Assembly: GCA_021770065.1 (NCBI GenBank)
Contig: JAETRR010000002.1
Span: 186,001-250,000, forward strand
Direction: 5' to 3'
Length of the DNA stretch: 64,000 nt
Source of the DNA: Lachnoclostridium sp.
GTDB lineage: Bacteria > Bacillota > Clostridia > Lachnospirales > Lachnospiraceae
Shown here: positions 41,178 to 56,858 of the stretch, one piece after another
How the letters are laid out: each line of letters opens with the position of its first letter
How positions within the stretch are numbered: the first letter of the stretch is position 1
Made by a program: the position numbers and the translations under genes
Notes under the pieces: generated by a model
Told to the model about the DNA's origin: nothing
The model's database searches: none
What the model saw: only the letters and a program-made list of their open reading frames with translations

Positions 41178-41187
41178 GAGGTTTATT

Positions 41188-42609
41188 ATGAAAGAAAGTT
41201 TTCACAGATCAGCAGCTTCTATAGAAGAATCACGTATCAAAGAAGCCTGCGGTGTGTTCGGGATCTTTAACCCGGACGGTGAGGAGGCGGCCGGTTCCAT
41301 TTACTATGGGCTGGCCTCCCTGCAGCACCGCGGCCAGGAATCCTGCGGAATCGCCATCTGCGATACAAAGGGACCCAAGGGAAACATGAATGTCCGCAAA
41401 GGCATGGGCCTGGTCCATGAAGTATTTTCGGAAGCCGCTCTAAAAGAATTAAAAGGAAATCTTGGCGTGGGCCATGTCCGCTACTCTACCACCGGGGAAT
41501 CAAACCTCAATAATGCCCAGCCCCTGGTTCTGAACTACATTAAAGGAACTCTCGCACTTGCCCACAACGGAAATCTCATCAATACCGAAGAGCTCCGCAA
41601 AGAGCTGGTCCGCACAGGAGCAATCTTCCAGACTACTGCGGATTCCGAGGTAATTGCCTATCACATCGCCCGTGCAAGAGTTTATACAAGCTCGGTAGAG
41701 GAAGCCATCCAAAAAGCCGCCGCCAAAATCAAAGGCGCCTACGGCCTGGTAATTGCCAGCCCGAGAAAGCTGATCGGCGTAAGAGATCCCTTCGGCTTAA
41801 AACCGCTCTGCCTCGGCAGACGCGGCTCTTCCTATATCATCGCTTCCGAAAGCTGTGCACTCCACGCCGTGGGAGCAGAATTTGTCCGGGACATTCTTCC
41901 GGGGGAAATCCTGACCATTTCTCAGAGAGGCATAACCTCCAACCTGCAATTATGCCAGAAAAAGCAGGCACACTGTATTTTTGAATACATATACTTTGCC
42001 CGGCTGGACAGCACCCTGGACGGCATCTCCGTCTATGAATCCCGTCTGAAAGCCGGTGCAGCCCTGGCAAAAGCCTATCCGGCAGACGCCGATCTGGTAA
42101 CCGGCGTTCCCGATTCCGGCCTTGCCGCCGCCCAGGGTTTTGCCGGCGAATCCGGCATTCCCTTTGGTCTGGCCTTCCACAAAAACAGCTACGTAGGCCG
42201 GACCTTCATCAAGCCCACCCAGGAAGAACGAAAGTCCGGAGTGCGCCTGAAGCTGAGCATTCTGGAAGCCGCCGTAAAAGGAAAAAATCTGGTACTTGTA
42301 GACGATTCCATAGTCCGTGGCACCACCATAGCCAACCTGATACGCCTGCTGAAGCAGGCCGGAGCCGGAAAAGTACACGTAAGAATCAGCTCACCCCCCT
42401 TTTTGCACCCCTGTTACTTCGGCACAGACATTCCCTCCAATCAGCAGCTCCTGGCCGCCTCCCACTCCGTAGAAGAGATCCGCCGCTTGATCGGCGCAGA
42501 CTCCCTGGGCTATATGCGCGTAGAAGATCTGGACAGTACCGTAAACGGTCTTCCATTGTGCAAAGCCTGCTTTGACAACCACTACCCAATGGAAATCCCA
42601 CAAACATAG
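41188..42609 (+). CDS. purF: Amidophosphoribosyltransferase
   Basis: A 473-residue enzyme committing PRPP to purine synthesis using glutamine. A 20-residue propeptide precedes the N-terminal nucleophile Cys21 (EACGVFGIF). The glutaminase domain follows (LQHRGQESCGIA, GHVRYSTTGESN), then the PRPP domain with LVLVDDSIVRGTT. The C-terminal CKAC and HPCYFG cysteines suggest the B. subtilis-type [4Fe-4S] form. It starts 10 nt after glnN and so is probably co-transcribed. Confidence 0.97.
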   Translation: MKESFHRSAASIEESRIKEACGVFGIFNPDGEEAAGSIYYGLASLQHRGQESCGIAICDTKGPKGNMNVRKGMGLVHEVFSEAALKELKGNLGVGHVRYSTTGESNLNNAQPLVLNYIKGTLALAHNGNLINTEELRKELVRTGAIFQTTADSEVIAYHIARARVYTSSVEEAIQKAAAKIKGAYGLVIASPRKLIGVRDPFGLKPLCLGRRGSSYIIASESCALHAVGAEFVRDILPGEILTISQRGITSNLQLCQKKQAHCIFEYIYFARLDSTLDGISVYESRLKAGAALAKAYPADADLVTGVPDSGLAAAQGFAGESGIPFGLAFHKNSYVGRTFIKPTQEERKSGVRLKLSILEAAVKGKNLVLVDDSIVRGTTIANLIRLLKQAGAGKVHVRISSPPFLHPCYFGTDIPSNQQLLAASHSVEEIRRLIGADSLGYMRVEDLDSTVNGLPLCKACFDNHYPMEIPQT

Positions 42610-42615
42610 AAAACA

Positions 42616-42665
42616 TTGCTCCCAAAACCAGAACGTGCTGCAAAAAACTTTTACTCCCAAAACCA
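42616..42665 (+). repeat. Direct near-repeat flanking palindromic element A
   Basis: CTCCCAAAACCAG occurs at 42619-42631 and again at 42653-42665, each followed by a similar run (GCTGCAAAAAACTTTT versus GCTGCAAAAGAAGTCC). It looks like a partial duplicate of the left edge of the element. Confidence 0.6.
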
Positions 42666-42874
42666 GGGTCAGCTGCAAAAGAAGTCCTCCGGATTTTCCG
42701 ATATCAAGTGTCCGGCTGTTCGCGCACACACTGTCTGATGTGGACGGACATTACCAAAATACCAGCCGTTATAAAAATATAACAAGGTAATGTCCATCCA
42801 AAGCAGACAGTGTGTACGCGAACCGTCCGAACACGGATATGGAAAATCCGGAGGACTTCTTTTGCAGCTGACCC
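42666..42874. repeat. Palindromic element A (90-nt arms, 30-nt loop)
   Basis: Arms 42666-42755 and 42786-42874. The outer 34 bp pair perfectly and the inner ~55 bp pair with scattered mismatches, including GGACATTACC against GGTAATGTCC at the loop. It lies between the convergent purF and deoC genes, with only ~11 nt to deoC. A second family member is at 56604-56817. No ORF is apparent. A two-way terminator role is possible, but the length greatly exceeds a normal terminator. Confidence 0.85.
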
Positions 42875-42885
42875 GTCCGTCCCAA

Positions 42886-43551
42886 TTAATACCCCGAACT
42901 CGCCTCATTCTTCACAATCTTCACAATCCTGCTCGTCCCGAGCCGATCTGCCCCAAGCTCCAGGAACTTTTCCGCATCTCCCATAGAAGAAATCCCCCCG
43001 GCAGCCTTCATCCGTACACCCGGTCCGATATGCTCCGAAAACAGCTTAATATCCTCAAAAGTCGCTCCGGCCTTAGAAAATCCGGTAGAAGTCTTAATAA
43101 AATCCGCCCCGGCATTCGTAACCGCATGGCACAAAGCAATCTTCTCTTCATCCGTAAGAAGACAGGTTTCAATAATTACTTTCAGAATTTTATCCCCGCA
43201 TGCCGCTTTAAGCGTCCGGATCTCTTCCTCAATGGCATCAAACTTTCCGTCTTTCGCCCAGCCGATATTAATGACCATATCGATCTCATCCGCACCATTT
43301 AAAAGCGCGTCCTTCGTCTCAAACTCCTTAGCTGCCGTAGTCATATACCCGTTGGGGAATCCGATTACCGTACAGACAGCCATCTTATCCTGTACATAAT
43401 CCTTCACCTGCTTCACATAGCTTGGAGGAATGCACACAGATGCCGTCCCATAAGCAATCGCATCATCACAAATCTGCCGGATCTCCTCCCATACAGCCGT
43501 CTGCGTCAGCAAAGTATGATCCACATGTTTCAAAATCTCTTTTACATCCAT
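42886..43551 (-). CDS. deoC: Deoxyribose-phosphate aldolase
   Basis: A 221-residue class I aldolase splitting 2-deoxyribose 5-phosphate into acetaldehyde and glyceraldehyde 3-phosphate. The Schiff-base lysine motif [15 protein letters not shown] and the strand [13 protein letters not shown] are visible, and the start [11 protein letters not shown] is typical. It is the last gene of the nucleoside operon. GGAGAA precedes the ATG. Confidence 0.97.
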
Positions 43552-43611
43552 TCTTATTCTCCTATTCCGGTTTTACATCCCCTAAACAGTACACCTTCCT
43601 TTAAAAAAAGA

Positions 43612-44322
43612 TTAGGCTAATTCCAAAGCAATCTCCATCATCTTTCCGAAGCCGACCTGCCGATCCTCTGCGCTCAGAGCCTCGCCCGTATAAATATGAT
43701 CCGAGATTGTCAAGAGACAAAGCGCCTTCTTCCCGGCCTTCGCCGCATTCATATAAAGAGCCGCTGCCTCCATCTCCACTGCAAGCACACCCATACTTCT
43801 CCACAGATCATTGGCATCACTCTTCGCATTGTAGAACACATCCGAAGACAGCACATTTCCGACAACCACATGAGTTCCCTGCTCCTTAGCGACAGCAATG
43901 GCCTTACTCATAAGCTCATAATCCGCTGTAGGTGCAAAGGTTCCGGGAAGTCCGAACTGGTACGCATAATTGGAATCCGTGCAGGCGCCCATGCCCACGA
44001 CCACATCCATCACCTTCACATGATCCTGCAGGGCACCGGCCGAACCAATGCGGATAATATTATCCACATCATAAAAATGAAAGAGCTCATAAGAATAAAT
44101 TCCAATGGACGGCATTCCCATACCGGCCCCCATCACGGAAATCTCTTTCCCGTGATACGTTCCCGTATAACCGAACATGTTCCGGACCGTAGTCACCAGT
44201 CTCGGATTCTCCAGATAAGTCTCCGCAATATATTTTGCACGCAGGGGATCTCCCGGCATCAGAACCGTCTTTGCAAAATCTCCCTCTTTTCCCCCATTGT
44301 GGGGAGTTGGTACTTTAGACAT
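43612..44322 (-). CDS. deoD: Purine-nucleoside phosphorylase, DeoD type
   Basis: A 236-residue hexameric-type phosphorylase cleaving purine (deoxy)ribonucleosides. Motifs: MPGDPLRAKYIAETYL (phosphate site), GAGMGMPSIGIYSYEL, RIGSAGALQ and LAVEMEAAALY. It starts 4 nt after the YczE-like gene and precedes deoC by 60 nt. Confidence 0.97.
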   Translation of the reverse strand: MSKVPTPHNGGKEGDFAKTVLMPGDPLRAKYIAETYLENPRLVTTVRNMFGYTGTYHGKEISVMGAGMGMPSIGIYSYELFHFYDVDNIIRIGSAGALQDHVKVMDVVVGMGACTDSNYAYQFGLPGTFAPTADYELMSKAIAVAKEQGTHVVVGNVLSSDVFYNAKSDANDLWRSMGVLAVEMEAAALYMNAAKAGKKALCLLTISDHIYTGEALSAEDRQVGFGKMMEIALELA

Positions 44323-44326
44323 TTTA

Positions 44327-44953
44327 TTACTCCTCTCTCAACCAATATTTTTTCAAAATCTTCGTAAAAAACTGAATCACCGGACCTACAGCCAGGGCGG
44401 TAATCACCGTAACCACCCCCAGCCTGCCGCCCAGAAGCGTTCCCAGAACCACCATGGCCAGGTCAAACCCAATCTTCACATACCGGTATTCTTTTTTCAG
44501 TACATCGCGAAGCACCAGCACTACTCCGGTAAAAGGATCCACACCGATATCCACTGTAATATAAACAGCGACACCCAGGGATAACAGCACACATCCCAGC
44601 ACACTAAACACAATACGCACTCCGACATCCTCCGAAGCCCCCAGCAGCCGGTAGATAAAATTTCCAAAATCCACACAAAAGCCGTAAGGCAGAAGATACA
44701 CAAAAGTACCGATGCTGACATAGCGTCTTCCTGTAAAAAAGAGAAGCACCAGAAGCACAATATTTACCACATTGGATGCCGTTCCAAGCTGAGCCTGGCT
44801 CATACCGCTGACACTGCGGATTCCGTCATAAACGATTCCGACAGGATCATTTCCAAATCCGGCGCAATTATTAAAAGCAACCCCCACGCCCACAAGGAGA
44901 ACCCCGAAAGCCGCGGCGAGAATACTTTTCCATGTAATCTTATGCTGTTCCAT
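44327..44953 (-). CDS. YczE/YyaS/YitT family membrane protein
   Basis: A 208-residue protein with about six hydrophobic segments and the family's FNNCAGFGNDPVGIVYDG and ITVDIGVDPFTGVVL repeats, which look like an internal duplication. The function is unknown. Embedded in the nucleoside operon (gaps of 10 and 4 nt), it may transport a related compound or a product such as a sugar or base. Confidence 0.82.
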   Translation of the reverse strand: MEQHKITWKSILAAAFGVLLVGVGVAFNNCAGFGNDPVGIVYDGIRSVSGMSQAQLGTASNVVNIVLLVLLFFTGRRYVSIGTFVYLLPYGFCVDFGNFIYRLLGASEDVGVRIVFSVLGCVLLSLGVAVYITVDIGVDPFTGVVLVLRDVLKKEYRYVKIGFDLAMVVLGTLLGGRLGVVTVITALAVGPVIQFFTKILKKYWLREE

Positions 44954-44963
44954 GAGACACCTG

Positions 44964-45899
44964 TTATTTCGACTTTACAAAAATTTTCCCGTTTGCCGCC
45001 GGTGTATGGGCCTTGCCCACAAACAGTACCAGTGCCAGGATAGTCACAATGTACGGAATCATGGAAATCAGGTTGGGCGAAACCGTATTGCTCTGTCCGG
45101 CCAGGGTCTTAATGCCGCTGCAGAGTCCGAAAAGCAGGCAGGCCTTCGTAGCGCCCCCGGGAGAAAACTTTCCGAAAATTACTGCCGCGATCGCGATAAA
45201 ACCCTGTCCCACGATTACGCTCGGACGGAACTGGTTGATGGTTGCCAGTGTTACAAAGGCTCCGCCGAGTCCTGCCAGGAAACCGGACAGAATCACACAG
45301 GTATAACGAACCTTGTACACGTCAATCCCCAGGGATTCACAGGCCTCCGGATGCTCTCCCACTGCACGCAGGTGTGCGCCGAACTTTGTCTTATAGAACA
45401 CAAACCAGCAGACAAGGGCAAGAAGGAACACCAGATAAGCTACCGAGTACACATTCAGCACGTTGCTCCAGAAGGAGCCCGCCGGAAATACGCCCTGGAA
45501 CAGCTTTGGAAGCTTGCAGCTTGGATCCATGGCCGGTGTGTCCGAAGAATTATTGTACATTGCCTTACATAAGAATACCGCAAGGCCCGGTCCAAGGAAA
45601 TTAATTGCCGTTCCGGCAATGGTCTGATCCGCATGGAAGGAAATACAGGCCACCGCATGAATCACTCCGAACAATGCCCCGGCCAGACCGGCACAGAAAA
45701 ATGCAATCCATCCGTTTCCGGTGGTCAGGCCCATAACCGCTCCCGTAAAGGCGCCGATCGTCATCATTCCTTCAATTCCGATATTGACAACGCCGCTGCG
45801 CTCGGAAAAACAGGAACCGAGAGCTGCCAGCAGAAGCGGCGGTGTGGCGATTAAGGTTGCATTGATAAGTAACCCGAGATCTTTAATAATCACATCCAT
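44964..45899 (-). CDS. Nucleoside ABC transporter permease 2 (NupQ/YufQ-like)
   Basis: A 311-residue permease of the branched-chain/ribose-like class (BPD_transp_2). Visible: SERSGVVNIGIEGMMTIGAF, GAHLRAVGEHPEACESLGIDV (the EAA-like coupling loop) and VGQGFIAIAAVIFGKFSP. It forms a heterodimer with the permease encoded immediately upstream. The start at 45899 lies 1 nt after the preceding stop with GGAGGG upstream. The context (BMP-type binding protein, deo genes) supports nucleoside import. Confidence 0.9.
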   Translation of the reverse strand: MDVIIKDLGLLINATLIATPPLLLAALGSCFSERSGVVNIGIEGMMTIGAFTGAVMGLTTGNGWIAFFCAGLAGALFGVIHAVACISFHADQTIAGTAINFLGPGLAVFLCKAMYNNSSDTPAMDPSCKLPKLFQGVFPAGSFWSNVLNVYSVAYLVFLLALVCWFVFYKTKFGAHLRAVGEHPEACESLGIDVYKVRYTCVILSGFLAGLGGAFVTLATINQFRPSVIVGQGFIAIAAVIFGKFSPGGATKACLLFGLCSGIKTLAGQSNTVSPNLISMIPYIVTILALVLFVGKAHTPAANGKIFVKSK

Positions 45900-45900
45900 T

Positions 45901-46968
45901 CTACTTTCCCTCCTTTTTGCCGAAACGGGCAAACAGCACCCGGAAAATCTGGGAAATAGCGATAAACAAAATAACGCATCCCATAATAATGTCTACAACC
46001 TCTGAGGGCGCTTTCACAATACTGAGCTTGGATCCGCCGTATTTCATGGCGCCATAGAAAAGCCCGGAAAAGATGCAGCCGATGGGACTGGAGGAGCCAA
46101 TCAGGGCTACCGTGATTCCCTCGAAGCCAAAGCCTTCCTGTCCGGCAAACTGGCTTAAACGCCCGGACATGCCCAGGATCTGTACGGCACCGCCGAGGCC
46201 GGCCAGCGCGCCGGAGATGCCGAGAGCCGTCAGAACAGACCGGTCTGCATTGATACCCGCATACAGAGCGCCGTTGCTGTTAAAACCTACAGCCTTTAAT
46301 TTATATCCCAGAGTTGTTTTTTCAATAATTATCCAGATAATTATGGCAGCTGCAACCGCCATAATAATGCCCCAGTTAGCCGCACTGCAGTCGAGGGCCT
46401 TGCGCACTCCCTCCGGAAACAGCAGTCTTGCGGAATCCAGTACATCCTTGGAAGCCTCTCCGCCGCCTTCCTTGTGGATGACCGCCAGATTTACCACATA
46501 ATTGGACAGGTAAAATGCAATCCAGTTGAACATAATAAAGGAGAGAACCTCATGGATTCCCCGTTTTACCTTCAGAAGTCCTACAATCAGAGACCAGATC
46601 ATTCCCGCCGCCGCTGCCGCTATGATACACAGAGGCACATGAATCACAGCCGGAAGATCCAGCAGAATTCCGAGACTGCAGGCCGTCAGGCCTCCCACAA
46701 CAAACTGCCCCTCCGCGCCGATATTGAACACGCCGGTGCGGAAGGAAAAGGCTACGCTTAACCCCGTGAAGATCAGAGGGCTGGCATAAATCAATGTCCA
46801 GAACAGATATTTGGGTTTCCCAAATATACTGTTAAGCAGTTTTCCATAAGCCACCGCCGGACTGATTCCCGCAATCAGCAGGAATACGGCTCCGATAATA
46901 AAGCCCGCCGCAATAGCGATCAAGGTATAGAATACATTACTATCCAAGATACTCTTCTTTTTATTCAT
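45901..46968 (-). CDS. Nucleoside ABC transporter permease 1 (NupP/YufP-like)
   Basis: A 355-residue permease. It opens with a hydrophobic helix after MNKKKSILDSNVFY and contains GVFNIGAEGQFVVGGL, YKLKAVGFNSNGALYAGI and GEGFGFEGITVALIGSSSP-like family segments (here GQEGFGFEGITVALIG). It overlaps the ATPase gene by 8 bp. It is paired with the following permease. Confidence 0.9.
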   Translation of the reverse strand: MNKKKSILDSNVFYTLIAIAAGFIIGAVFLLIAGISPAVAYGKLLNSIFGKPKYLFWTLIYASPLIFTGLSVAFSFRTGVFNIGAEGQFVVGGLTACSLGILLDLPAVIHVPLCIIAAAAAGMIWSLIVGLLKVKRGIHEVLSFIMFNWIAFYLSNYVVNLAVIHKEGGGEASKDVLDSARLLFPEGVRKALDCSAANWGIIMAVAAAIIIWIIIEKTTLGYKLKAVGFNSNGALYAGINADRSVLTALGISGALAGLGGAVQILGMSGRLSQFAGQEGFGFEGITVALIGSSSPIGCIFSGLFYGAMKYGGSKLSIVKAPSEVVDIIMGCVILFIAISQIFRVLFARFGKKEGK

Positions 46969-48505
46969 GCCCCTTACCTCCTGCCATCATAAAGCCAAGC
47001 TCTTTCTCGTCCGCATCTTTTCCTGGAACGCTTCCCGTGATCTGCCCGTCAAAGATAACCTCAATCCGGTCAGACAGGCTCATAATTTCATCCAGCTCAA
47101 AGGATACAAGAAGGACCGCCCTGTTCTTATTCCGCTGCTCTACCAGATATTTATGTACAAACTCAATGGCTCCCACGTCAAGGCCGCGGGTGGGATTCAC
47201 CGCGATCAGAAGCTCTTTGTCGTTGGTTACCTCTCTGGCAATGATAACCTTCTGCTGATTTCCGCCTGACAGGGTTCCAGCCGGTGCAGCTTCACAGCCT
47301 CTCGGCCTTACGTCGAACTTTTCAATCAGTTCTACGGCATGATCCCGGACAGCCTTTCGGTTCAGCATATGCTTCTTTGCAAAAGGCTCTTCCTCAAAAT
47401 GCTGAAGGATCAGGTTATCCTCATTGGAAAATTCCAGAATCAGTCCATGCTTCTGGCGGTCTGCCGGAATGCTTGAAATGCCGCTGTCAAAAGTTTCTTT
47501 GGGTGTTTTGTTAAATACATCCTTTCCGAGAAGAGATGCTTCGCCGCTGTCTGCCTTTCTAAGGCCTGTCAATACCTCCACAAGCTCTGTCTGTCCGTTG
47601 CCGTCCACACCTGCAAGACCTACAATCTCGCCTCTTCGCACGGTCAGATTAAGACCTTTCAGAATTTCCACATCCCGATAATCCTTTGCATGGAGATTTT
47701 TTACCTCCAGAACCACTTCTCCCGGTGTCATTTCCTTTTTGTCGACCTTGAAGTTCACGTCACGGCCCACCATCATAGCTGCCAGCTCATTTTCATTGAC
47801 TTCATCCACCCTGACGGTACGGATGTATTTTCCCTGCCGGATGATCGTACAGGTATCGGAGCAGGCCGTAATCTCTTTCAGCTTATGGGTAATCAGGATT
47901 ACGCTCTTGCCGTCTGCAGTCAGATTCTCAATGATCTCCATCAGTCCCTCGATCTCTTGAGGCGTAAGAGAAGCTGTGGGCTCATCCAGAATCAGGGTGT
48001 CCGCGCCCCGGTAGAGCACTTTCAGAATCTCCACTCTCTGCTGCATTCCCACGGAGATATCCTCTACCTTTGCGTCCGGATCCACCTTCATTCCATACCG
48101 CTCCGAAAGCTCCAGAACCTTTTCCCTGGCTGTATTGTGATCGATCACCAGCCCTTTTACAGGCTCCACGCCAAGGATGATGTTATCCGCAACGGTAAAC
48201 GGCGGAATCAGCATAAAGTGCTGATGAACCATTCCGATTCCGATGTCGATGGCATCCTTGGGACTTGAAAAATGGACCTCCTTCTCATTGATAAAGATCT
48301 GTCCGCTTGTGGGCTTATACAGTCCGCAGAGTACATTCATCATGGTACTCTTGCCCGCGCCATTTTCTCCTAAAATGGCATGTACCTCTCCTTTGTGTAC
48401 GGTGAGATTGATGTGGTCGTTGGCTGTGAAATCGCCGAACTTTTTCACAATATCCTTCATCTGGATGACAACCCTGCTCTCATCCATATGGCTCACTTTT
48501 CCCAC
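46961..48505 (-). CDS. Nucleoside ABC transporter ATP-binding protein (NupO/YufO-like)
   Basis: A 514-residue protein with two ABC domains in tandem. Domain 1 has Walker A GENGAGKST and signature EDISVGMQQRVEIL with Walker B LILDEPTAS; domain 2 has GVDGNGQTEL as a degenerate Walker A and GTLSGGNQQKVIIARE with VNPTRGLDVGA as a degenerate Walker B. This asymmetry is normal for sugar/nucleoside importers. I placed a GTG start at 48505, since GGAGG lies 8 nt upstream; an ATG at 48487 is the alternative. Confidence 0.9.
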   Translation of the reverse strand: MGKVSHMDESRVVIQMKDIVKKFGDFTANDHINLTVHKGEVHAILGENGAGKSTMMNVLCGLYKPTSGQIFINEKEVHFSSPKDAIDIGIGMVHQHFMLIPPFTVADNIILGVEPVKGLVIDHNTAREKVLELSERYGMKVDPDAKVEDISVGMQQRVEILKVLYRGADTLILDEPTASLTPQEIEGLMEIIENLTADGKSVILITHKLKEITACSDTCTIIRQGKYIRTVRVDEVNENELAAMMVGRDVNFKVDKKEMTPGEVVLEVKNLHAKDYRDVEILKGLNLTVRRGEIVGLAGVDGNGQTELVEVLTGLRKADSGEASLLGKDVFNKTPKETFDSGISSIPADRQKHGLILEFSNEDNLILQHFEEEPFAKKHMLNRKAVRDHAVELIEKFDVRPRGCEAAPAGTLSGGNQQKVIIAREVTNDKELLIAVNPTRGLDVGAIEFVHKYLVEQRNKNRAVLLVSFELDEIMSLSDRIEVIFDGQITGSVPGKDADEKELGFMMAGGKGHE

Positions 48506-48519
48506 TCCCTCTACCTCCT

Positions 48520-49365
48520 TTAAATAATTATAATGTCTTGAAATCCGCAGCTTCTTAAGATATCCGCCAGTTTTTCCAGGTACTCCCTGTCCGGCACCCG
48601 GCACCCGGCATATTCCCTGCGCACGCCCATGGGCCTGTAGGCAATCACCTTTATACGAAATGGGCAGACCGCCAGATAGGGGGCAAGAAATTCTCCTGTT
48701 CTGCGTATACTGCGCTCCGTATCATAAAGATCGGGAGCGATTACAGTTCTTACTTCATACAGCTTCTTATGTTCTGCAAGCCAGACCGCATTGGAAAGCA
48801 CCGTCTCATTGGAGGCTCCTGTGACCGCCCGGTGCTCTTCGCTGTCAAAGGCTTTGATGTCCAGCATAACTCCGTCTGTCACTTCCATCAGATCTGGATA
48901 GTCACAAAAGGGAATGGTTCCGTTGCTGTCAATCAGGGTGGTAAGCTTATCCTTTTTTGCCAGACAAAACAGCTCTGTAAGGAAATCCGGACGGAGCATG
49001 CACTCTCCTCCGGATACGGAAATGCCCCGGATAAATGGTATCTGGCGTTTTATCCGCTCGTAGGTCTCCTTAGGCGTCAGCTCCTCCGTCCGCGGAGAAC
49101 TGTCATGGGGACAGATATGGATACAGGTGTCACACTGGACGCATTTGGAAGCATCGAAGCGCACCTTTTTGTTTTCCATGGACAATGCGCCTGCCGGGCA
49201 ATGCTCCACACAGAGTCCGCACTGCCTGCACATACCTCTTGTCTCCGGATTGTGACAGTATCTGCAGTCAATGTTGCAGCCCTGGAGAAAAACCGCCGTG
49301 CGGTTGCCCGGGCCGTCCACGCTGCTGAAGGGGATGATCTTATTGATTACTGCTTTCACTTTCAC
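48520..49365 (-). CDS. yjjW: YjjW-type glycyl radical enzyme activase
   Basis: A 281-residue radical SAM activase. The SAM cluster motif CNIDCRYC (CX3CX2C) is near residues 30-37. Two extra [4Fe-4S] motifs follow: CRQCGLCVEHCP and CVQCDTCIHICP. ISVSGGECMLRPDF is the conserved glycine motif. It would install the glycyl radical on YjjI, encoded ~3 kb upstream in the same orientation. The start is a GTG with AGGAGA before it. It lies between crp and the ABC ATPase genes. Confidence 0.92.
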   Translation of the reverse strand: MKVKAVINKIIPFSSVDGPGNRTAVFLQGCNIDCRYCHNPETRGMCRQCGLCVEHCPAGALSMENKKVRFDASKCVQCDTCIHICPHDSSPRTEELTPKETYERIKRQIPFIRGISVSGGECMLRPDFLTELFCLAKKDKLTTLIDSNGTIPFCDYPDLMEVTDGVMLDIKAFDSEEHRAVTGASNETVLSNAVWLAEHKKLYEVRTVIAPDLYDTERSIRRTGEFLAPYLAVCPFRIKVIAYRPMGVRREYAGCRVPDREYLEKLADILRSCGFQDIIII

Positions 49366-49435
49366 GGTCTCCTATCTTTGGTTCATACGTCTTCTGACGA
49401 TTGCCGGGCAGTATGCGAAATGTCTTTCTGCCCGT

Positions 49436-50152
49436 TTACTCAAATGCATACAGTTTATCCTCCAACAGTTCCCGTATCATCCGGTACTGCTTTTCGGAGA
49501 TGCGGATCTTCCAGCCTTCTCTTGTGATACAGCCTTTTTCCTCCAGCCCTTTTAAGGTCCGGGTCACGGTACGCTCAGAGATACCGGCCGTCTCCATAAA
49601 GTCTTTTCTGCTCATATATAAAAGACAGCTTCCGTTTCTGGCATAAGTCTGGTACATTTTGTAAAGTACCAGGTAAATCCGTTCTACTCCCTGGAGCAGC
49701 ACATAAAGGCGCTCTTTTCTTGCCTGTTTTAAAAGGTAATGCCCCACCTTCTTACATTCCATCCGGTAGGCGCAGAAATCGTGCTCAAACCATTTCCGGA
49801 AGGCTTCCCGGCCTGTTTTCAGAAACAGGCAGTCCTCGGCAGTTACCAGTGTGGTTTGATACGCATTCATCTCAAACATCAGTTCCATTACCCCGAAAAC
49901 CTCAATAGGGGAAAAACGGATAAAGCCGTAAGTCATATCCTTCACACGGTGCTCCTCGGCCACTACACTTCCTTTAAGCAGAATGTAAATATTTTTGGCC
50001 TCGTCTCCCTCTGTAATAAAAGTCTTATTGCCGGAAAGGCGGACAGGCTGAAACGCCTCCATCAGCCAGAAAGGAGCTCCAGCAAAATAGGTTTCCAGAT
50101 AAAGCCGATCCTGCTTGTTCAATTGTCGGATTAGATTGATTGCCTCGCTCAT
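49436..50152 (-). CDS. Crp/Fnr family transcriptional regulator
   Basis: A 238-residue regulator. The N-terminal cyclic-nucleotide-binding-like beta roll ([18 protein letters not shown]) is followed by a dimer helix and a winged helix-turn-helix ([29 protein letters not shown]). It lacks an FNR-type N-terminal cysteine cluster and a clear cAMP signature, so the effector is unknown. Its ATG overlaps the deoB stop by 4 nt. Being inside the operon, it likely controls the nucleoside genes. Confidence 0.88.
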
Positions 50153-51339
50153 TTCAGTTTCTTAAGAAGGGATGTCCCGATGGTTCCTTCCGGCATGGCG
50201 ATTCCGAAATTCTCAGTTATGGTTGCACCGACGGCCGCAAAGGTATCCGTCTCCGGAAGCTTTCCATGTCCCTCCATGGAGGGGGAATAAGCCAGGAAGG
50301 GGACTTTTTCTCTGGTATGATCGGTTCCCGTGTAGGTGGGATCGTTGCCGTGATCTGCCGTAATTATCAGCAGGTCATCCTCTTTCAGCAGTTCAAGAAG
50401 CACTCCAAGGTTTTTGTCAAACTTTTCGATCTCCTGTGCATATCCCACGGGATCTCTCCTGTGGCCCCATAAAGCGTCGAAATCTACCAGATTCACAAAA
50501 CATAAGCCATGAAATTCTTCTTTTGCCACATCGATAGTCTGCTCCATGCCGTGGACGGAACTTTTGGACTTTAAGGCTCTGGTGATGCCCTCACCGTCAA
50601 AGATATCCTTGATCTTACCGATGGATATTACATCCAGTCCGGCATCTTTTAAAGCGTCCAGAGCCGTTTTCCCAAAGGGCTTTAAAGCATAATCATGGCG
50701 GTTGCTTGTCCGCTTGAATTCGCCGCGTTTTTTCCCTACGTAGGGCCTTGCTATGATGCGCCCCACTTTCCACTCATCTTTCATGGTGATTTCCCGGGCT
50801 ATCTCACAGCAGCGGTAAAGTTCCTTCAGATCGAAGGTTTCCTCATTGCCGCAGATCTGCAGTACGGAATCTGCGGAGGTATAGACGATCATGTGGCCGG
50901 TGGCAATCTCTTCCTCGGCAAGCTCTTCCAATATCTCTGTTCCGCTTGCGCTTTTGTTCCCGATGATCTTGTGGCCGGTCCGCTCCTCCAGTTCCCGGAT
51001 AAGTTCCGGAGGAAAGCCGGTTTCGGTGAAGGTCTTGAAAGGCTGTTTCCCTTCCAGTCCCATGATTTCCCAGTGGCCGGTCATAGTGTCTTTGCTGCGG
51101 CTTTTTTCGTTCATTTTTGTATAGTATGCCAGAGGGCTCTCCACCGGTTCCACCTGCTTTAAGCTGCACAGGTTGGCTATGCCGAGCCGTCTTAAATTGG
51201 GGATGTCAAAAGTGTCTACGGATTCGGAGATGTGCTCCAGAGTATTTACACCTGTATCTCCATATTCTTTGGAATCTGTCATCTCTCCCACGCCCAGGGA
51301 GTCCATTACGACTACAAATACACGCTTACATTTCTGCAT
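50149..51339 (-). CDS. deoB: Phosphopentomutase
   Basis: A 396-residue alkaline-phosphatase superfamily mutase converting (deoxy)ribose 1-phosphate to 5-phosphate. Metal-binding and catalytic motifs: [11 protein letters not shown] near the start, [12 protein letters not shown] (phosphorylated Thr), [11 protein letters not shown] and [22 protein letters not shown]. It starts 3 nt after the udp-like stop. It links both phosphorylases to DeoC. Confidence 0.97.
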
Positions 51340-51342
51340 GAT

Positions 51343-52125
51343 TTATTTTTCCTTTCCCATATCTTCTTTGATGATCCTGCGCAGTGCTTCTACTGCGGTC
51401 CGGACGGCCATATCGGTGTCATGTACCACAGGGTTATTAAGGCCTTCTTTCTCACGCTCCTGGTTAGCTACTACGAGGAAAACCGAACCCGCGCGTACAT
51501 GGAGGGCGCTTGCCGCTATGAACAGGGCTGCGGATTCCATCTCGGAGGCGAGACAGCCTAAACGCTTCCAGGCTTCCCATTTGTTCAGAAGCTCATAGCT
51601 TACAGGCATGGTTTCCGGGGAGTGCTGTCCGTAGAAGGAATCTTTGCACTGTACGATGCCCGGGTGGTAATCGGTCTTCATCTCTTTTGCGGAAGCGATC
51701 AGTGCGTTCACAATGCTGATGTCTGCTACGGCCGGGAATTCGATAGGCGCATATTCTTTACTGGTTCCTTCCATGCGGATGGCTCCGGTGGCGATAACGA
51801 GATCTCCGCTTTTTACATCCAGCTGCATTCCGCCGCAGGTACCTACACGGATGAAGGTGTCGGCACCGGATTTTACCAGTTCTTCCATGGCGATGGACGC
51901 GGATGGGCCTCCGATTCCGGTTGAGGTGACACTGACTTTTACGCCTTCCAGATAACCGGTGTAGGTGACGTATTCACGGCTGTCGGCCATCAGCTCTGCA
52001 TTGTCGAAGTATTTTGCAATTTTGGCACAGCGCTTGGGATCTCCGGGAAGAATGACATATTTTCCCACATCCCCTTCCCCGACCTGGATGTGGTATTGCT
52101 TGCTTGCGTCTTCTGAATAATTCAT
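51343..52125 (-). CDS. Nucleoside phosphorylase, uridine phosphorylase-like
   Basis: A 260-residue PNP/UDP-superfamily enzyme. It has [17 protein letters not shown] (phosphate site), [29 protein letters not shown] and [15 protein letters not shown], and is closer to Udp than to DeoD. It phosphorolyses uridine and possibly deoxyuridine or thymidine. The start at 52125 has GGAGG 6 nt upstream; the longer frame lacks support. It is the first gene of the ten-gene operon. Confidence 0.9.
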
Positions 52126-52447
52126 GGTTGTCCTCCGTTTCTTATAAGTATTTGTATGCATTTCTTATTGTTCGTCATTTTTTGTCTTTTTTTAGAACTC
52201 TTTATATTATTTATATCATATATTCACAAATTAAAAAAGGACATTTGGCAAATTTAGAAAAAAAATTCATAAAAAGGGGAGGGGGGATTGTTTTGAAGGG
52301 GTGGATTGGGGATGAAGGTGGAAGTTATTTATTGGGGAGCGGGGTTGACGGGGATAGCTGGTGGAAAATAATGAGGGCCGCTGCAAAATCAGATTTCGGG
52401 ATTTTGCAGCGGCCCTTTGTATATTTTTGTGAGTTATGTGCGCGGCG
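52126..52447. other. Intergenic region between yjjI and udp: terminator, G-run cluster, promoter
   Basis: No gene is visible. It holds, from right to left, a strong inverted repeat (52374-52416), seven runs of four or more G on the plus strand (52276-52353) and a candidate promoter for the udp operon (TTGTGA 52224-52229, 17-nt spacer, TATAAA 52201-52206, on the minus strand). Confidence 0.6.
52374..52416 (-). terminator. Terminator-like hairpin after yjjI
   Basis: A perfect 17-bp stem (AGGGCCGCTGCAAAATC against 52400-52416) with a 9-nt loop, starting 32 nt after the yjjI stop. The trailing T-rich stretch on the minus strand is imperfect (CATTATTTTCC). Confidence 0.65.
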
Positions 52448-53992
52448 CTAGCGGATCTTTCTTTCCAGGATATGGCCGTTTTGGGAGGCTCCGAGGCCGA
52501 GGCCGGTGGTGTTCTGGAGGACGGCAAGGCCGCTGTCCAGTTTTTCCATTTCGGAGCGTTTTACAAGGTAGCCGGTTACGCGGATTACGTCGCTGTCACT
52601 GGAGTAGAAGGACAGATAGCGCAGATCCTGCCGGAAGGCGCCCTTGATGATGTCCAGGACAAATTCCGGATTTTTGTGTACGGTCAGATCGATGGGGAAG
52701 ATGTCGCCGGTTCCGGAGGGGAAGTATTTGTGGAAGCGGTTCAGCACTTTCAAGTGGTCGATCAGTTCCTGGGGCTCTTCTCCGATGGGGATTCGGGTTC
52801 CCGGGGTTACGTGCTCGTCTTCCGCAAGGCCCACCTGGGCGTGAAGGAGGTAATGGCCTCCGGTCACTTCGCAGTAGGGGGCTTCGTGGCTGCTGTTGAA
52901 CCGGTCTATGATATTCATGATTTCCACACCCAGATCATTGGCGGCTTCGTCGTGGCCAAAGCGTCCGGTCTTTCCCTCTTTTTCCAAAAGGATGTTTACG
53001 CACTCTGCCAGACCTACCAGGCCGAACATGGCCGTGAAGCGGTCTCTCTGCACGAAACCTTCTTTTACAAGAAAATGGTTTTCGAAGAAGCCGCTCTCTT
53101 CTACCTCAAAGCGGACACGGGCGTCCATGTACCTTGCCATAATGTCAAGGACATACGGAAGTTCGCGCTCTTTGAAGTCCTGGATATCTTTGGCACGCTT
53201 GGCGATGTTGCCCAGGATCAGACGGCAGAGGGTGTAGGAACCGCCGCCTAAGGGCAGGCCGTTGTAGCAGCTTGCGATAACGTATTTTTCGGTGAGCTCG
53301 CTTTTGAACATGGTGTGGTTGGCGAAGCTGGGCTTTGCGCTGTGCAGGGCGCAGTCGATGGCTTTCAGCGCAAATTCGTCATCTGTCACGCCTTCCTCGT
53401 ATTTCATGGTGATATTGGGCACTGCATGCTCAAGTTCGGTTTCTACCTCAAGTAGAAGCCTTCCCGCTTTGGTTGCTCTGGGACCGATGTTGGCATGGGA
53501 GAAGGAATCCAATACGGTACGGTCCACATGGATCATAAACATCCGGAGAAGCTTCCTGGCCTGCTCTTCGTCTACAGTGTCTATAAAGGGCTCCAGAAGT
53601 TCGTCGAGCTGTCCCACATATACGGGATAATTTGTGACGCTGGGCACATGCTTGTAAAATATCAGCAGGCTGTTCAGCGCCTCATAGAGATCTGTCGGAG
53701 CCGGGAGCTGAAGAAAACTGCAGCCTTCTTTCATAAATTTTGCATAGTCCGGCGCTATGTAACGGGGGCGCACCGGGGCGTGGCCCTCACTGAGATCGCA
53801 GATGCACTGCTTGTCAATGCCTGTATTAAGAAGCTCATCCAGACCTTCCGGGAGATCCAGGACTTCCATTAAGGAGTCCGCCTGATTTGCCAGATTGGTC
53901 AGCTTCTGCTCGTGGGTCAGTACGGGGCTTTCGATAATCTCCAGTATCTTTTCCCGTGTCTTGTTTACCCGTTCCATGGAAATGTCTCTCAT
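52448..53992 (-). CDS. yjjI: YjjI family glycyl radical enzyme (DUF3029)
   Basis: A 514-residue protein. The C-terminal glycyl radical loop VIRVTGYLVKRSEMEKL places the radical Gly at ~474. The cysteine that would carry the thiyl radical is not assigned; the best candidate is ASCYNGLPLGGGSYTLC in mid-protein. It is much shorter than pyruvate formate-lyase-like enzymes (~750-850). In E. coli, yjjI and yjjW lie next to deoCABD; the reaction is unknown. The start at 53992 has AGGAGG 9 nt upstream. It lies between bmpA and udp, each side having a terminator-like hairpin. Confidence 0.93.
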   Translation of the reverse strand: MRDISMERVNKTREKILEIIESPVLTHEQKLTNLANQADSLMEVLDLPEGLDELLNTGIDKQCICDLSEGHAPVRPRYIAPDYAKFMKEGCSFLQLPAPTDLYEALNSLLIFYKHVPSVTNYPVYVGQLDELLEPFIDTVDEEQARKLLRMFMIHVDRTVLDSFSHANIGPRATKAGRLLLEVETELEHAVPNITMKYEEGVTDDEFALKAIDCALHSAKPSFANHTMFKSELTEKYVIASCYNGLPLGGGSYTLCRLILGNIAKRAKDIQDFKERELPYVLDIMARYMDARVRFEVEESGFFENHFLVKEGFVQRDRFTAMFGLVGLAECVNILLEKEGKTGRFGHDEAANDLGVEIMNIIDRFNSSHEAPYCEVTGGHYLLHAQVGLAEDEHVTPGTRIPIGEEPQELIDHLKVLNRFHKYFPSGTGDIFPIDLTVHKNPEFVLDIIKGAFRQDLRYLSFYSSDSDVIRVTGYLVKRSEMEKLDSGLAVLQNTTGLGLGASQNGHILERKIR

Positions 53993-54120
53993 AGATAAGA
54001 TCCTCCTATTCATAGTTCCATAATATCCGCACTGTTTATATCTATTTTATACCATAGGAAGGGCAGGTTTGCAAAGGCCATATGGCACTTTTTACAATAA
54101 AAATTATGTAAAAGTAAAAC

Positions 54121-54162
54121 CGCCGGGACCGCTCTGTTTTTGAAACAGATGCGGTCCCGGCG
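54121..54162 (-). terminator. Intrinsic terminator of bmpA
   Basis: CGCCGGGACCGC (54121-54132) pairs with 54151-54162, extended inward by TCTGTTT/AAACAGA. On the minus strand a T-rich tail (GTTTTACTTTTA) follows. It begins 50 nt after the bmpA stop. Confidence 0.8.
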
Positions 54163-54211
54163 ATTTATGTAATTTGCTTCTTTGTTCTGCTTTTCAGACT
54201 TGTATGGAAAA

Positions 54212-55336
54212 TCAGTCTAATTCGTATACATCGCCGTAAGCAGCCTCAAACTCAGCCTGTGTAGAAGGAACTACTACTTCGCCGCTTATGATCTTGGTCT
54301 TGACTTCCTCTACTGCCTTGATGACATCATCAGTCAGAAGATCCTGTGTGGGTGCAATGTCTACGCCGCCTGCTGCCAGGTCGTAGGTGTGGATGCCGCC
54401 CTCAAGGGTTCCGTTGATAAGAGCCTGTACGGAATCGTATACTGCGTTGTCTACTCTCTTCATTGCGGATGTGATGATGGTCTCCGGTGCAAGATGTGCC
54501 TGGTCGCTGTCTACGCCGATAGCATATACGCCGTCAGCTTCGGAGCAGGCTTCGATAACGCCCTGTCCGGTTGCGCCTGCAGCATGGAAGATGATGTCTG
54601 CGCCGTCAGTGATGCACTTGTTCGCGCTGCTCTTTCCGGTTGCCGGATCTGCAAAAGAGTTGGCGTTGATCTGCTGAATCTTTACATCCGGATTGGCATC
54701 CAGTGCGCCTGCGCAATAGCCGTATCCGAAGAGGTTCATGTTCTCATTTGCCATACCGATAACGAAACCGATATTGTCGGCTTCCGTCATAAGGCCGGCT
54801 ACGTAGCCTACCAGGTAGGAAGCCTGCTCCTGCTTGAACATAAGACAGCTTACATTGTCAAGCTCAATGGTAGCATCGTCAATGATAGCAAACTTCACAT
54901 CCGGATTGGCTTCTGCTGCGGTTCTGGTAGCGTCTGCAAGCATGTAGCCTACACAGATGATCAGATCGCACTCTTCGTCAACGAAGGTCTCAATGTTGGG
55001 AACGTAATCTGCGTCTGTCGCAGACTCAAGATAGCTTGCTTCTACGCCAAGCTCATCCATGGCTCTCTGAAGGCCTTCCCATGCGGACTGATTGAAGGAG
55101 CCGTCGTTTACTCCGCCCACGTCCGTGATAAGACCGATCTTAAAGTCCGCGCCGTTGCCTGCCGGAGCTTCTGCATCTACGCCCGCATCCTCTGCCGGAG
55201 CTTCCGCATCATCGCCTGCCTGCTCACCGCTCTGCGCCGGAGCTTCTGTCTCCTTTTCTGAAGAGCCTCCTCCACATGCTGTCATGGTTGCTACCATAGC
55301 AGCGGTCAGTAATACTGCCAGAATTTTCTTTTTCAT
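54212..55336 (-). CDS. bmpA: BMP family nucleoside-binding lipoprotein
   Basis: A 374-residue substrate-binding protein of an ABC importer. The lipoprotein signal MKKKILAVLLTAAMVATMTAC ends in a lipobox Cys at 21, followed by an acidic, Ala/Glu-rich linker (~residues 28-60). The Bmp domain follows: KIGLITDVGGVNDGSFNQSA, FAIIDDATIELDNVSCLMFK, GFVIGMANENMNLFGYGYCAG. PnrA/BmpA relatives bind purine nucleosides. The start has AGGAGAG upstream. It would deliver to the ATPase/permeases encoded 6 kb downstream. Confidence 0.92.
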   Translation of the reverse strand: MKKKILAVLLTAAMVATMTACGGGSSEKETEAPAQSGEQAGDDAEAPAEDAGVDAEAPAGNGADFKIGLITDVGGVNDGSFNQSAWEGLQRAMDELGVEASYLESATDADYVPNIETFVDEECDLIICVGYMLADATRTAAEANPDVKFAIIDDATIELDNVSCLMFKQEQASYLVGYVAGLMTEADNIGFVIGMANENMNLFGYGYCAGALDANPDVKIQQINANSFADPATGKSSANKCITDGADIIFHAAGATGQGVIEACSEADGVYAIGVDSDQAHLAPETIITSAMKRVDNAVYDSVQALINGTLEGGIHTYDLAAGGVDIAPTQDLLTDDVIKAVEEVKTKIISGEVVVPSTQAEFEAAYGDVYELD

Positions 55337-55517
55337 ATGTTTCTCTCCTTTTTCTTTTTTGGCTTTCGCCGGAGGCTGTACCCGTCCGCAGATTCCGCCG
55401 TCAGGCATAGCGGCAGAATAGCTGTAGTAATTTGGGACAATCTCCTATGCCTTATCTTAACATCTTTTGAAAGAAAAAGGAAGACGGAAATTTTTTTTGT
55501 TTTTTACTGTCTTTTCC

Positions 55518-56129
55518 TCATTCCACTTCCCGAAGCCGCTCTACCACACTCTGCCGCTCTGCCATCCGGCAGGCCAGAACGGGAATCAGTGTGCCGAGAA
55601 CAAAAAATACCAGAAGCATTCCCAGAATGGGACTCCAGATCCATTTTGCCGTAAAAAACCACAGCAGATGCTCAAGCTGCGTAAGTACCAGGCTCTGCAT
55701 CAGAAGGCTTAAAGCCAGTGACAGCAGGACGGCAAGTATTCCGTAGGCACAGCCCTCCAGTATCAGCATCTCCTTAAGCTGCCGGCCGGTCATGCCAATG
55801 CTCTGAAGTACCGCCATCTCCCGGCGCCTGGCGCGGATTCCCGTCACCGTGGCATTTACAAAATTTAACATTCCCACCAGAGCCACTACCAGACTAGCCG
55901 ATGTTCCAATCAGAAGAAACATCCGGCGGAAAGACTGAAATTGATCACTGTATCCCTTTTTCGATTCAAAGTCCAGATCAGGGTCTGCATTTTCTATATA
56001 TTTATCCAGAAATTCTGTCATCCGGTCATCTGTTCCTTCTTCCATATTCACAAGACAGCTCATCCAATCCGTATATTCCAGCCCCTGCTTCCATCATATC
56101 CGTATCATCCAGGGACCGGATCTCTTCAC
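55518..56129 (-). pseudogene. C-terminal remnant of an FtsX-type ABC exporter permease
   Basis: Residues TEFLDKYIENADPDLDF onward match the C-terminal ~180 residues of a two-domain antimicrobial-peptide-type permease, including YSDQFQSFRRMFLLIGTSAS, RRREMAVLQSIGMTGRQL and the end RQSVVERLREVE. A complete permease is several hundred residues longer. The N-terminal part is missing, and upstream the frame is blocked by a TGA. It is therefore the end of a partially deleted gene joined to the ATPase remnant. Confidence 0.85.
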
Positions 56130-56387
56130 TCAGATTTTGAATCTGCATACTGTAAAGCGTCCGCAGATACTGTTCATGTCTTTTTTGTCTATCAGGACTT
56201 TGCCTTCTGTGGGGCGGTCCAGGCCGCCGAGCATATGGAGCAGGGTAGATTTGCCGCTGCCGGAGGTTCCTACGATGGCAGTGAAGGTGCCGTCTTCTAT
56301 CTTCAAGTTCACGCCGTCTAAGGCTTTTACGGTGTTTTCGCCGGAGTTGTAATATTTTTTCAGATCTCTCGTTTCCAGGATGGTCAT
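56130..56387 (-). pseudogene. N-terminal remnant of an ABC exporter ATPase
   Basis: It begins like a MacB/BceA ATPase: LETRDLKKYYNSGENTVKAL, then Walker A VGTSGSGKSTLLHMLGGLDRP, and stops being homologous after LIDKKDMNS (residue ~73). The last twelve residues (ICGRFTVCRFKI) are out of family. The signature motif, Walker B and the rest are missing. A good GGAGG remains upstream of the ATG, so the fragment may still be translated but cannot hydrolyse ATP. Confidence 0.88.
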
Positions 56388-56858
56388 ATTATAAATCCTC
56401 CATTTCTTTTTCGGTTAAGCGGCATGGGCAGCAGTGTTATGTGCGTGTGTGAATGAAGCAGATGTATTTGCAGTGGTGTGCAAATGGGATGCCTGCGCTT
56501 TATGATGGGAGTATAACATAGAAAACTTTCTCTGTTCTTTCGGGAATATAACGGAGTTGTAAGATTTGTAATGAATGCAGGTATGTATATTTTGGGGACG
56601 GACGGGGATGCCGCGAAACAGGACGCCGGGCTTTTCCATATCCTGTGTTCGGACGGTTCTCATACAGTCTGTCTGCTCTGTACGTACATTACCCTGATGA
56701 GTTTTTGTAAAGCAGAAAGTATTTTCGGGTAATGTGCGCCCATATCAGACAGACTGTATGCGAACAGCCGGACACTGGATATCGGAAAAGTCCGGCGTCC
56801 TGTTTCGCGGCATCCCCTGGTATTTTTATAATGTTTTATGGTTTTCTTTTGACGGGCG
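56388..56858. other. Gene-free stretch containing palindromic element B
   Basis: Between the ABC ATPase remnant and the 475-residue membrane protein. About 200 bases next to the ATPase hold only its leader (a TATACT-like box near 56514, with no clear -35). The rest is the palindromic element described separately. No ORF is credible. Confidence 0.6.
56604..56817. repeat. Palindromic element B (91-nt arms, 32-nt loop)
   Basis: Arms 56604-56694 and 56727-56817. The outer 34 bp have one mismatch; the inner part pairs with gaps. Inner sequence (GTCCGAACAC, GGATATGGAAAA, AGCAGACAG, GTAATGT) matches element A in the opposite orientation. It is flanked on one side by GGGGACGGAC, matching the GTCCGTCCC beside element A. 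Confidence 0.85.

Follow-up and report, generated by a model that had tools for sequence, protein, structure and literature searches.

Introduction

Among the glycyl radical enzymes present in E. coli K-12 is YjjI, the gene of which forms an adjacent pair with that of its predicted activase (yjjI-yjjW, b4380-b4379). As an earlier note on the DNA studied here had stated, the E. coli pair lies beside deoCABD, from which it is divergent. According to published work, yjjI of E. coli is directly activated by FNR (PMC3688515), CRP shows a binding peak between yjjI and deoC in enterotoxigenic E. coli (PMC4287617), and in Y. intermedia grown without oxygen yjjI rises 4.3-fold and yjjW 2.1-fold (PMC3792023); the gene also appears in other expression lists (PMC9068703, PMC6643234, PMC6561319). 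Our literature search, with subscription journals largely outside its coverage, found no paper assigning a reaction to YjjI. Here we analyze a 64,000-nucleotide stretch of Lachnoclostridium sp. (GCA_021770065.1, contig JAETRR010000002.1, positions 186,001 to 250,000), hereafter the window, in which yjjI and yjjW stand within a locus for the import and breakdown of nucleosides.

The closest described enzymes are the class III ribonucleotide reductases (NrdD), with which YjjI has in common a ten-stranded barrel equipped for a glycyl radical and a thiyl cysteine (Foldseek, profile alignment). Two reports describe formate as donor and an Asn-X-Asn flap in NrdD (PMC8463856, PMC12662201). The barrel is also common to the PflD/YbiW anhydroglucitol-6-phosphate enzymes and to the glycerol and propanediol dehydratases; judging from PDB titles (8id0, 8id7), some glycyl radical dehydratases act on cyclic sugar phosphates. 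YjjI of the window and of E. coli are 41% identical, and both belong to an anaerobic-type pair beside nucleoside genes, whereas the window's pair is split and lies inside an importer locus. Like BMP/TmpC-type nucleoside importers, this locus encodes a BMP lipoprotein, one two-domain ATPase and two permeases. Specificity for nucleosides is predicted from sequence resemblance to TmpC and Lbp; the nearest NCBIfam models are parts of a 'putative B6' transporter, all below cut-off.

Results and discussion

Our analysis makes it likely that nucleoside metabolism is the right field for YjjI. A more tentative reading, and the one we prefer, has the protein work without oxygen on nucleosides or on their pentose unit. 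Twelve colinear genes run along the minus strand of the window (55336 down to 42886; open reading frame (ORF) list and profile scans) in the order BMP - yjjI - udp - deoB - crp-like - yjjW - ABC ATPase - permease A - permease B - yczE-like - deoD - deoC. The gene yjjI (52448..53992, minus strand) scores 692 bits against TIGR04040 (cut-off 498), with an almost full-length match (profile 2-497 of 497), and 742 bits against PF11230; its ORF opens at 54013, the ATG at 53992 having the better ribosome site. The gene yjjW (48520..49365, minus strand; TIGR04041 375 bits, cut-off 250) encodes the predicted radical SAM activase of YjjI.

A total of 116 yjjI loci were examined, 115 of them distinct (L089 and L148 are one locus). 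Eighty named loci came from one genome-contig scan, which kept the 80 best of its 582 confirmed candidates and is therefore biased to near kin; the closest named relatives among them are Lachnospiraceae, with 93% identity at best. Twenty-five loci came from 398 genomes drawn evenly from the window's phylum, of which 26 match, the window's own included, and five from Spirochaetota (6 of 198 genomes match); six annotated records complete the set. Neighbors were counted by tblastn with named references, and outside the close group 60 of 61 loci are distinct, some with short flanks.

Importer genes (BMP or permeases) flank yjjI in 48 of 55 close-kin loci. Elsewhere they occur near it in 1/25 Clostridium-type and other named loci, 5/25 loci of the even draw, 1/5 from Spirochaetota and 0/6 annotated records, which gives 7 of the 60 distinct loci beyond the close group, with differing gene orders (L101, L157, L158, L159, L161, L162, L173). 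Where each flank of a close locus spans 8 kb or more (32 loci), the importer is present in 29 cases, CDA in 18, a phosphorylase in 17, DeoC in 16, ADA in 14 and DeoB in 9. Among all close loci CDA is found in 27/55 and ADA in 21/55, and neither is found elsewhere among the surveyed loci. Other nucleoside-related genes, the families of which were separately checked, lie near yjjI in more distant relatives: psuK-psuG in 6 of 25 Clostridium-type loci, xpt in four loci (L090, L163, L165, L168), and mtnA together with a class II aldolase and an importer in L162.

A quick tree of 43 YjjI proteins, weak in 11 of its 40 inner branches, calls for at least five changes of the importer state and at least ten of the state of any nucleoside gene (L101 is absent after thinning at 72% identity, and L108 is coded as none). 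As a control we took 20 loci from the same phylum, all verified to hold NrdD: none contains an importer, and only one contains any of the sought genes (L184, mtnA plus a purine nucleoside phosphorylase). A rough binomial estimate, using our own figures of about 2.5 BMP genes per genome and 35 lineages, gives p = 3e-4 for at least five importer lineages arising by chance.

A yjjW gene lies within 400 nt of yjjI, before or after it, in 111/116 loci (one a duplicate; 115 distinct), and was not found in the remaining 5/116. The window is unusual in that three genes separate yjjI from yjjW, and the retention of both separated genes in the nucleoside locus speaks for a tie of the pair to that locus. 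In L155, L156, L157, L158, L159, L164 and L166 YjjW has only about 238-254 residues and, judging from unaligned lengths and N-termini, seems to be without the ferredoxin-like insert of the longer YjjW.

The earlier note, made from the sequence of the window, had narrowed the substrate of YjjI to deoxyribose, its phosphates, or the acetaldehyde and glyceraldehyde 3-phosphate made by DeoC. Both deoC and deoB do occur in the window and in E. coli, DeoC lies within 10 kb of yjjI in 18/55 close-kin loci (the 16 of 32 with full flanks given above), and 33/34 YjjI genomes encode it. Yet near yjjI it appears in 0/25 Clostridium-type and other named loci, 0/25 loci of the even draw, 0/5 Spirochaetota loci and 1/6 annotated records; this one is E. 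coli, apart from which DeoC is found in 0/59 other distinct loci. Nor does genome-level co-occurrence help: with DeoC nearly everywhere (65/80 YjjI-free genomes; 24/25 carriers of the phylum draw against this background, p = 0.11), the background is too high, and we rejected this co-occurrence as proof of a link. The psuK-psuG, xpt and mtnA neighbors, moreover, yield or use ribose phosphate or bases and produce no deoxyribose or acetaldehyde, which argues against the narrowing. We therefore consider a substrate from the deoxyribose branch unlikely. The note's wider claim of the same partnership in a distant phylum stands in so far as yjjI and yjjW keep company with nucleoside genes in several orders and lineages. 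As the outcome that would speak against it, the note had named a lack of enrichment beside deo genes beyond these taxa. For the deo genes such a lack is largely what we see, but not for nucleoside genes in the wider sense. Our results suggest that the tie of YjjI to deoxyribose is not general and that the enzyme serves nucleoside scavenging generally. Its link with nucleosides as such proves firmer and wider than the sequence of the window could reveal.

Genome content was compared between 34 YjjI genomes and 80 YjjI-free genomes of the phylum (G001-G084 minus carriers, not all non-carriers); the statistics allow for kinship only crudely. BMP is present in 34/34 YjjI genomes versus 54/80 YjjI-free genomes, and in 25/25 carriers of the phylum draw (p = 4e-4 versus YjjI-free genomes). 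It was counted at E 1e-10 in carriers and at 1e-40 in non-carriers, and all 34 carriers also pass 1e-40. The sharpest genome-level partner of YjjI is PsuG, with 23/34 YjjI genomes versus 10/80 YjjI-free ones, 17/25 of the carriers in the phylum draw (p = 2e-7) and, when families are counted, 8/15 versus 8/58 (p = 0.0026). Together with the six psuK-psuG loci, and with xpt, which handles a base, in four loci, this partnership favors a free base or an intact, perhaps modified nucleoside (pseudouridine or another derived from RNA) as substrate, rather than a freed pentose. PsuG is, however, missing from 11/34 carriers and was not found in the window's own genome (92% complete), and in the close group the phosphorylases, deoB and deoC point to sugar catabolism. 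A base or intact nucleoside in place of the pentose is, on balance, a doubtful alternative.

The protein was examined in an alignment of 45 YjjI sequences, with residues counted from the ORF start at 54013. Cys249 and Gly481 are invariant in 45/45 rows, as are the glycyl radical motif R-V/I-T-G-Y and the sequence SCYN at the cysteine. An AlphaFold2 model made from these 45 sequences reaches a pLDDT of 93.7, and its 22 best Foldseek matches in the PDB are all class III ribonucleotide reductases (TM 0.59-0.70), followed at ranks 23-50 in part by glycyl radical dehydratases. YjjI aligns with an NrdD profile over 419 columns (E 2e-18), and Cys249 aligns with the thiyl cysteine of NrdD and of PFL. 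The features that mark NrdD are otherwise missing: no YjjI region aligns to the ATP cone, the C-terminal zinc site (two CxxC) is seen in 0/45 YjjI versus 9/9 NrdD, and an N-x-N flap occurs within the first 60 residues in 1/45 YjjI, while NAN is present in 9/9 NrdD. By these marks YjjI is not a ribonucleotide reductase; in its sequence it sits between NrdD and PFL. No YjjI cysteine aligns with Cys175 of E. coli NrdD, the second active-site cysteine, which serves in reduction. About a dozen alignment positions earlier stands Cys72, kept in 42/45 rows, with other cysteines kept less, and it may have a reducing role.

Glycyl radical dehydratases carry a GCxE motif at the thiyl cysteine. YjjI instead has SCYN (GCxE occurs once in the 45 rows, elsewhere than at the cysteine) and is shorter, with about 500 residues versus about 780-800. 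Arg84, Lys227, Arg264 and Arg407 are invariant and would go well with a negatively charged substrate, for instance a sugar phosphate.

Several observations weigh against assigning YjjI to nucleosides and their pentoses. None of the sought genes was found near yjjI in 7/55 close loci, 17/25 Clostridium-type and other named loci, 17/25 loci of the even draw, 4/5 Spirochaetota loci and 5/6 annotated records. Outside the close group the retrieved flanks of 42/60 distinct loci are without them; Vibrio, Aeromonas, Proteus, Haliovirga and a Chloroflexota plasmid belong here (L108 is counted as none, yet a cut-off BMP gene follows its yjjW). The Yersinia study shows udp falling on glucose when yjjI rises (PMC3792023). 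A 2011 co-expression study grouped yjjI with nitrate and nitrogen genes, noted an NrdD-like domain in the protein and proposed a role in nitrogen assimilation (PMC3228777); nothing in the 116 loci points there, although no dedicated test of this proposal was made. In single-sequence fits to the YjjI profile PFL (E 1.3e-4) is no worse than E. coli NrdD (7e-4). Also, the xpt and deaminase genes argue equally for a base as substrate, PsuG is lacking in the window's genome as said above, and the co-occurrence could stem from a life style of scavenging instead of a common pathway.

The many loci without any of the sought genes speak for an indirect link, in which YjjI-YjjW would be an independent anaerobic module, doing some unrelated task, that came to lie in nucleoside loci by chance and inheritance, in hosts that also scavenge nucleosides; the 48 close loci with an importer may descend from a single event. 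Such a history would have to account for importer associations that are separate in at least five cases and differ in gene order, for the NrdD control with its 0/20 importers and for a split pair both members of which were kept in the nucleoside locus, and we regard it as rather improbable.

All the genes that the earlier note had named in the twelve-gene locus are present. The BMP-family lipoprotein (54212..55336, minus strand; PF02608 265 bits, cut-off 24) is the predicted substrate-binding part of the nucleoside-type ABC importer; it starts at 55336, with a ribosome site (a longer start in the ORF list is 55408), and its closest solved chains are 7x0r 'Lbp' (E 7e-132) and 2fqw TmpC (E 1e-49). 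The other importer genes, likewise on the minus strand, encode an ATPase with two ATPase domains (46961..48505; PF00005 in two stretches), permease A (45901..46968; PF02653 144 bits) and permease B (44964..45899; PF02653 148 bits), the starts of the ATPase and of permease B being picked by ribosome site.

The catabolic genes, all on the minus strand, are udp (51343..52125; uridine phosphorylase type, TIGR01718 321 bits, cut-off 280; closest solved chain the uridine phosphorylase 3qpb, E 1e-124), the phosphopentomutase gene deoB (50149..51339; PF01676 164 bits), the purine nucleoside phosphorylase gene deoD (43612..44322; TIGR00107 313 bits, cut-off 232) and the deoxyribose-phosphate aldolase gene deoC (42886..43551; TIGR00126 231 bits, cut-off 117; closest solved chain 5dbu, E 1e-61). 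Pfam supplied the assignments of DeoB and permease A, which were outside the NCBIfam scan. The genome to which the window belongs carries a further DeoC gene on a different contig (G000:C11:81985-82602).

The membrane protein at 44327..44953 (minus strand), which the note had called YczE-like, scores below cut-off in both NCBIfam (NF052291, 80 bits, cut-off 205) and Pfam (DUF6198, 26.6 bits, cut-off 27) and can therefore be called only distantly YczE-like. The Crp-like transcription regulator (49436..50152, minus strand) passes the cut-offs of PF00027 and PF13545, and in the NCBIfam scan it reached no Crp/Fnr equivalog model. Crp-like regulators lie near yjjI in 9/55 close loci; the loci listed with one are L112 (11224-11895), L155, L035, L038, L039, L042, L048, L051, L061, L067 and L107. 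In L155 the regulator follows yjjW (by eye), and in Haliovirga one stands immediately upstream of yjjI and divergent from it.

With the starts yjjI 53992, udp 52125, ABC 48505 and permease B 45899, chosen by eye from ribosome sites, 7 of the 11 gaps are at most 14 nt or overlaps, which bears out the compact spacing reported earlier. Overlooked at that time were two terminator-like hairpins, each followed by a T-rich tract, on either side of yjjI. One lies between BMP and yjjI (54100..54175, approximate limits, minus strand; fold of 54090-54200, -44.6 kcal/mol, z -8.75) and the other between yjjI and udp (52365..52435, approximate limits, minus strand; fold of 52355-52435, -32.5 kcal/mol, z -7.5); both were spotted by eye, and the consensus scanner reports neither. 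Given these hairpins, a single twelve-gene operon was rejected as unlikely, and at least three transcription units are likely, with yjjI probably forming its own unit and udp to deoC another. Upstream of yjjI a TTGCAA-17-TATAAA arrangement was seen by eye; it is unlisted by the scanner, which demands T at the last place. In a simple scan of 41 relatives' loci with BMP just upstream, a terminator-like hairpin between BMP and yjjI was found in 11 and one right after yjjI in 2, so the isolation of yjjI by two hairpins sets the window apart from most relatives. An Rfam scan of 40000-58000 gave no match at the gathering score.

Outside the twelve genes, a palindromic element of about 210 bp stands on both sides of the nucleoside locus (42660-42885 and 56595-56795). 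Its outer arms of 34 bp are fully complementary. In the genome of the window at least 40 sites carry it (61 matches when both strands are counted; of 87 first-look candidates, 40 were scored), and it resembles a miniature inverted-repeat transposable element or a large repetitive extragenic palindromic element. At 55518-56387 two short ORFs resemble, by eye, the last part of the permease and the first part of the ATPase of an ABC exporter; they are apparently what is left of a truncated exporter beside the locus.

Some further neighbors of yjjI were seen in other genomes. An endonuclease III gene lies beside or near it in L157, L158, L159 and L161, which belong to one family, and a gene clustering with endonuclease III is also near yjjI in the unrelated L101. 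In L092, L093 and L106 a conserved protein of about 506-513 residues, with no Pfam match, is encoded between yjjW and psuK-psuG. None of the viral contigs encodes a YjjI relative; four YjjI matches among phage records were taken as host DNA (host-like Salmonella/E. coli YjjI, 80-99% identity), two of them being records of about 500 kb of Salmonella itself. Weak PF11230 matches (17-41 bits) proved to be NrdD and PFL-like proteins, not YjjI, and true YjjI in that genome scan was confined to 20 full-length genomes plus one fragment (G111).

Conclusions

In the pathway that we propose, nucleosides would enter via the BMP-type importer and then undergo deamination or cleavage, the latter through phosphorylases (in other organisms PsuG). 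Once activated by YjjW, YjjI would act on the nucleoside or the freed pentose unit. YjjW would place a radical on Gly481 that is passed to Cys249, and the resulting thiyl radical would take a hydrogen from the sugar ring, whereupon a neighboring C-O bond would break. The hydrogen abstraction is drawn by analogy with class III ribonucleotide reductase and the glycyl radical dehydratases. Our data establish the gene content, the conserved glycine and cysteine, the class of fold and the recurring nucleoside surroundings; from these we go on to infer a pentose as substrate and a step that stops short of full reduction, being an elimination or a dehydration.

A bolder version, which we rate as a long shot, sees in YjjI a branch of the ribonucleotide reductase fold turned to catabolism. 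It would take the 2-hydroxyl from a ribonucleoside or ribose phosphate, either by dehydration or by a reduction in which Cys72 and an external donor (formate, for instance) take part. This version is compatible with the data because Cys72 is conserved and because of the ribo-type neighbors. If it is true, ribonucleosides including pseudouridine would be fed into the DeoB/DeoC deoxyribose route or into a keto-deoxy product, a new way for anaerobes to ferment RNA sugars.

YjjI is an orphan glycyl radical enzyme of E. coli K-12, and its substrate class would narrow it to a short list of assays, with nucleosides, pseudouridine and the pentose phosphates as the compounds concerned. If the substrate is indeed a pentose, as the preferred reading has it, gut anaerobes would use the sugars of RNA and DNA by way of a radical step that is absent from present pathway maps.

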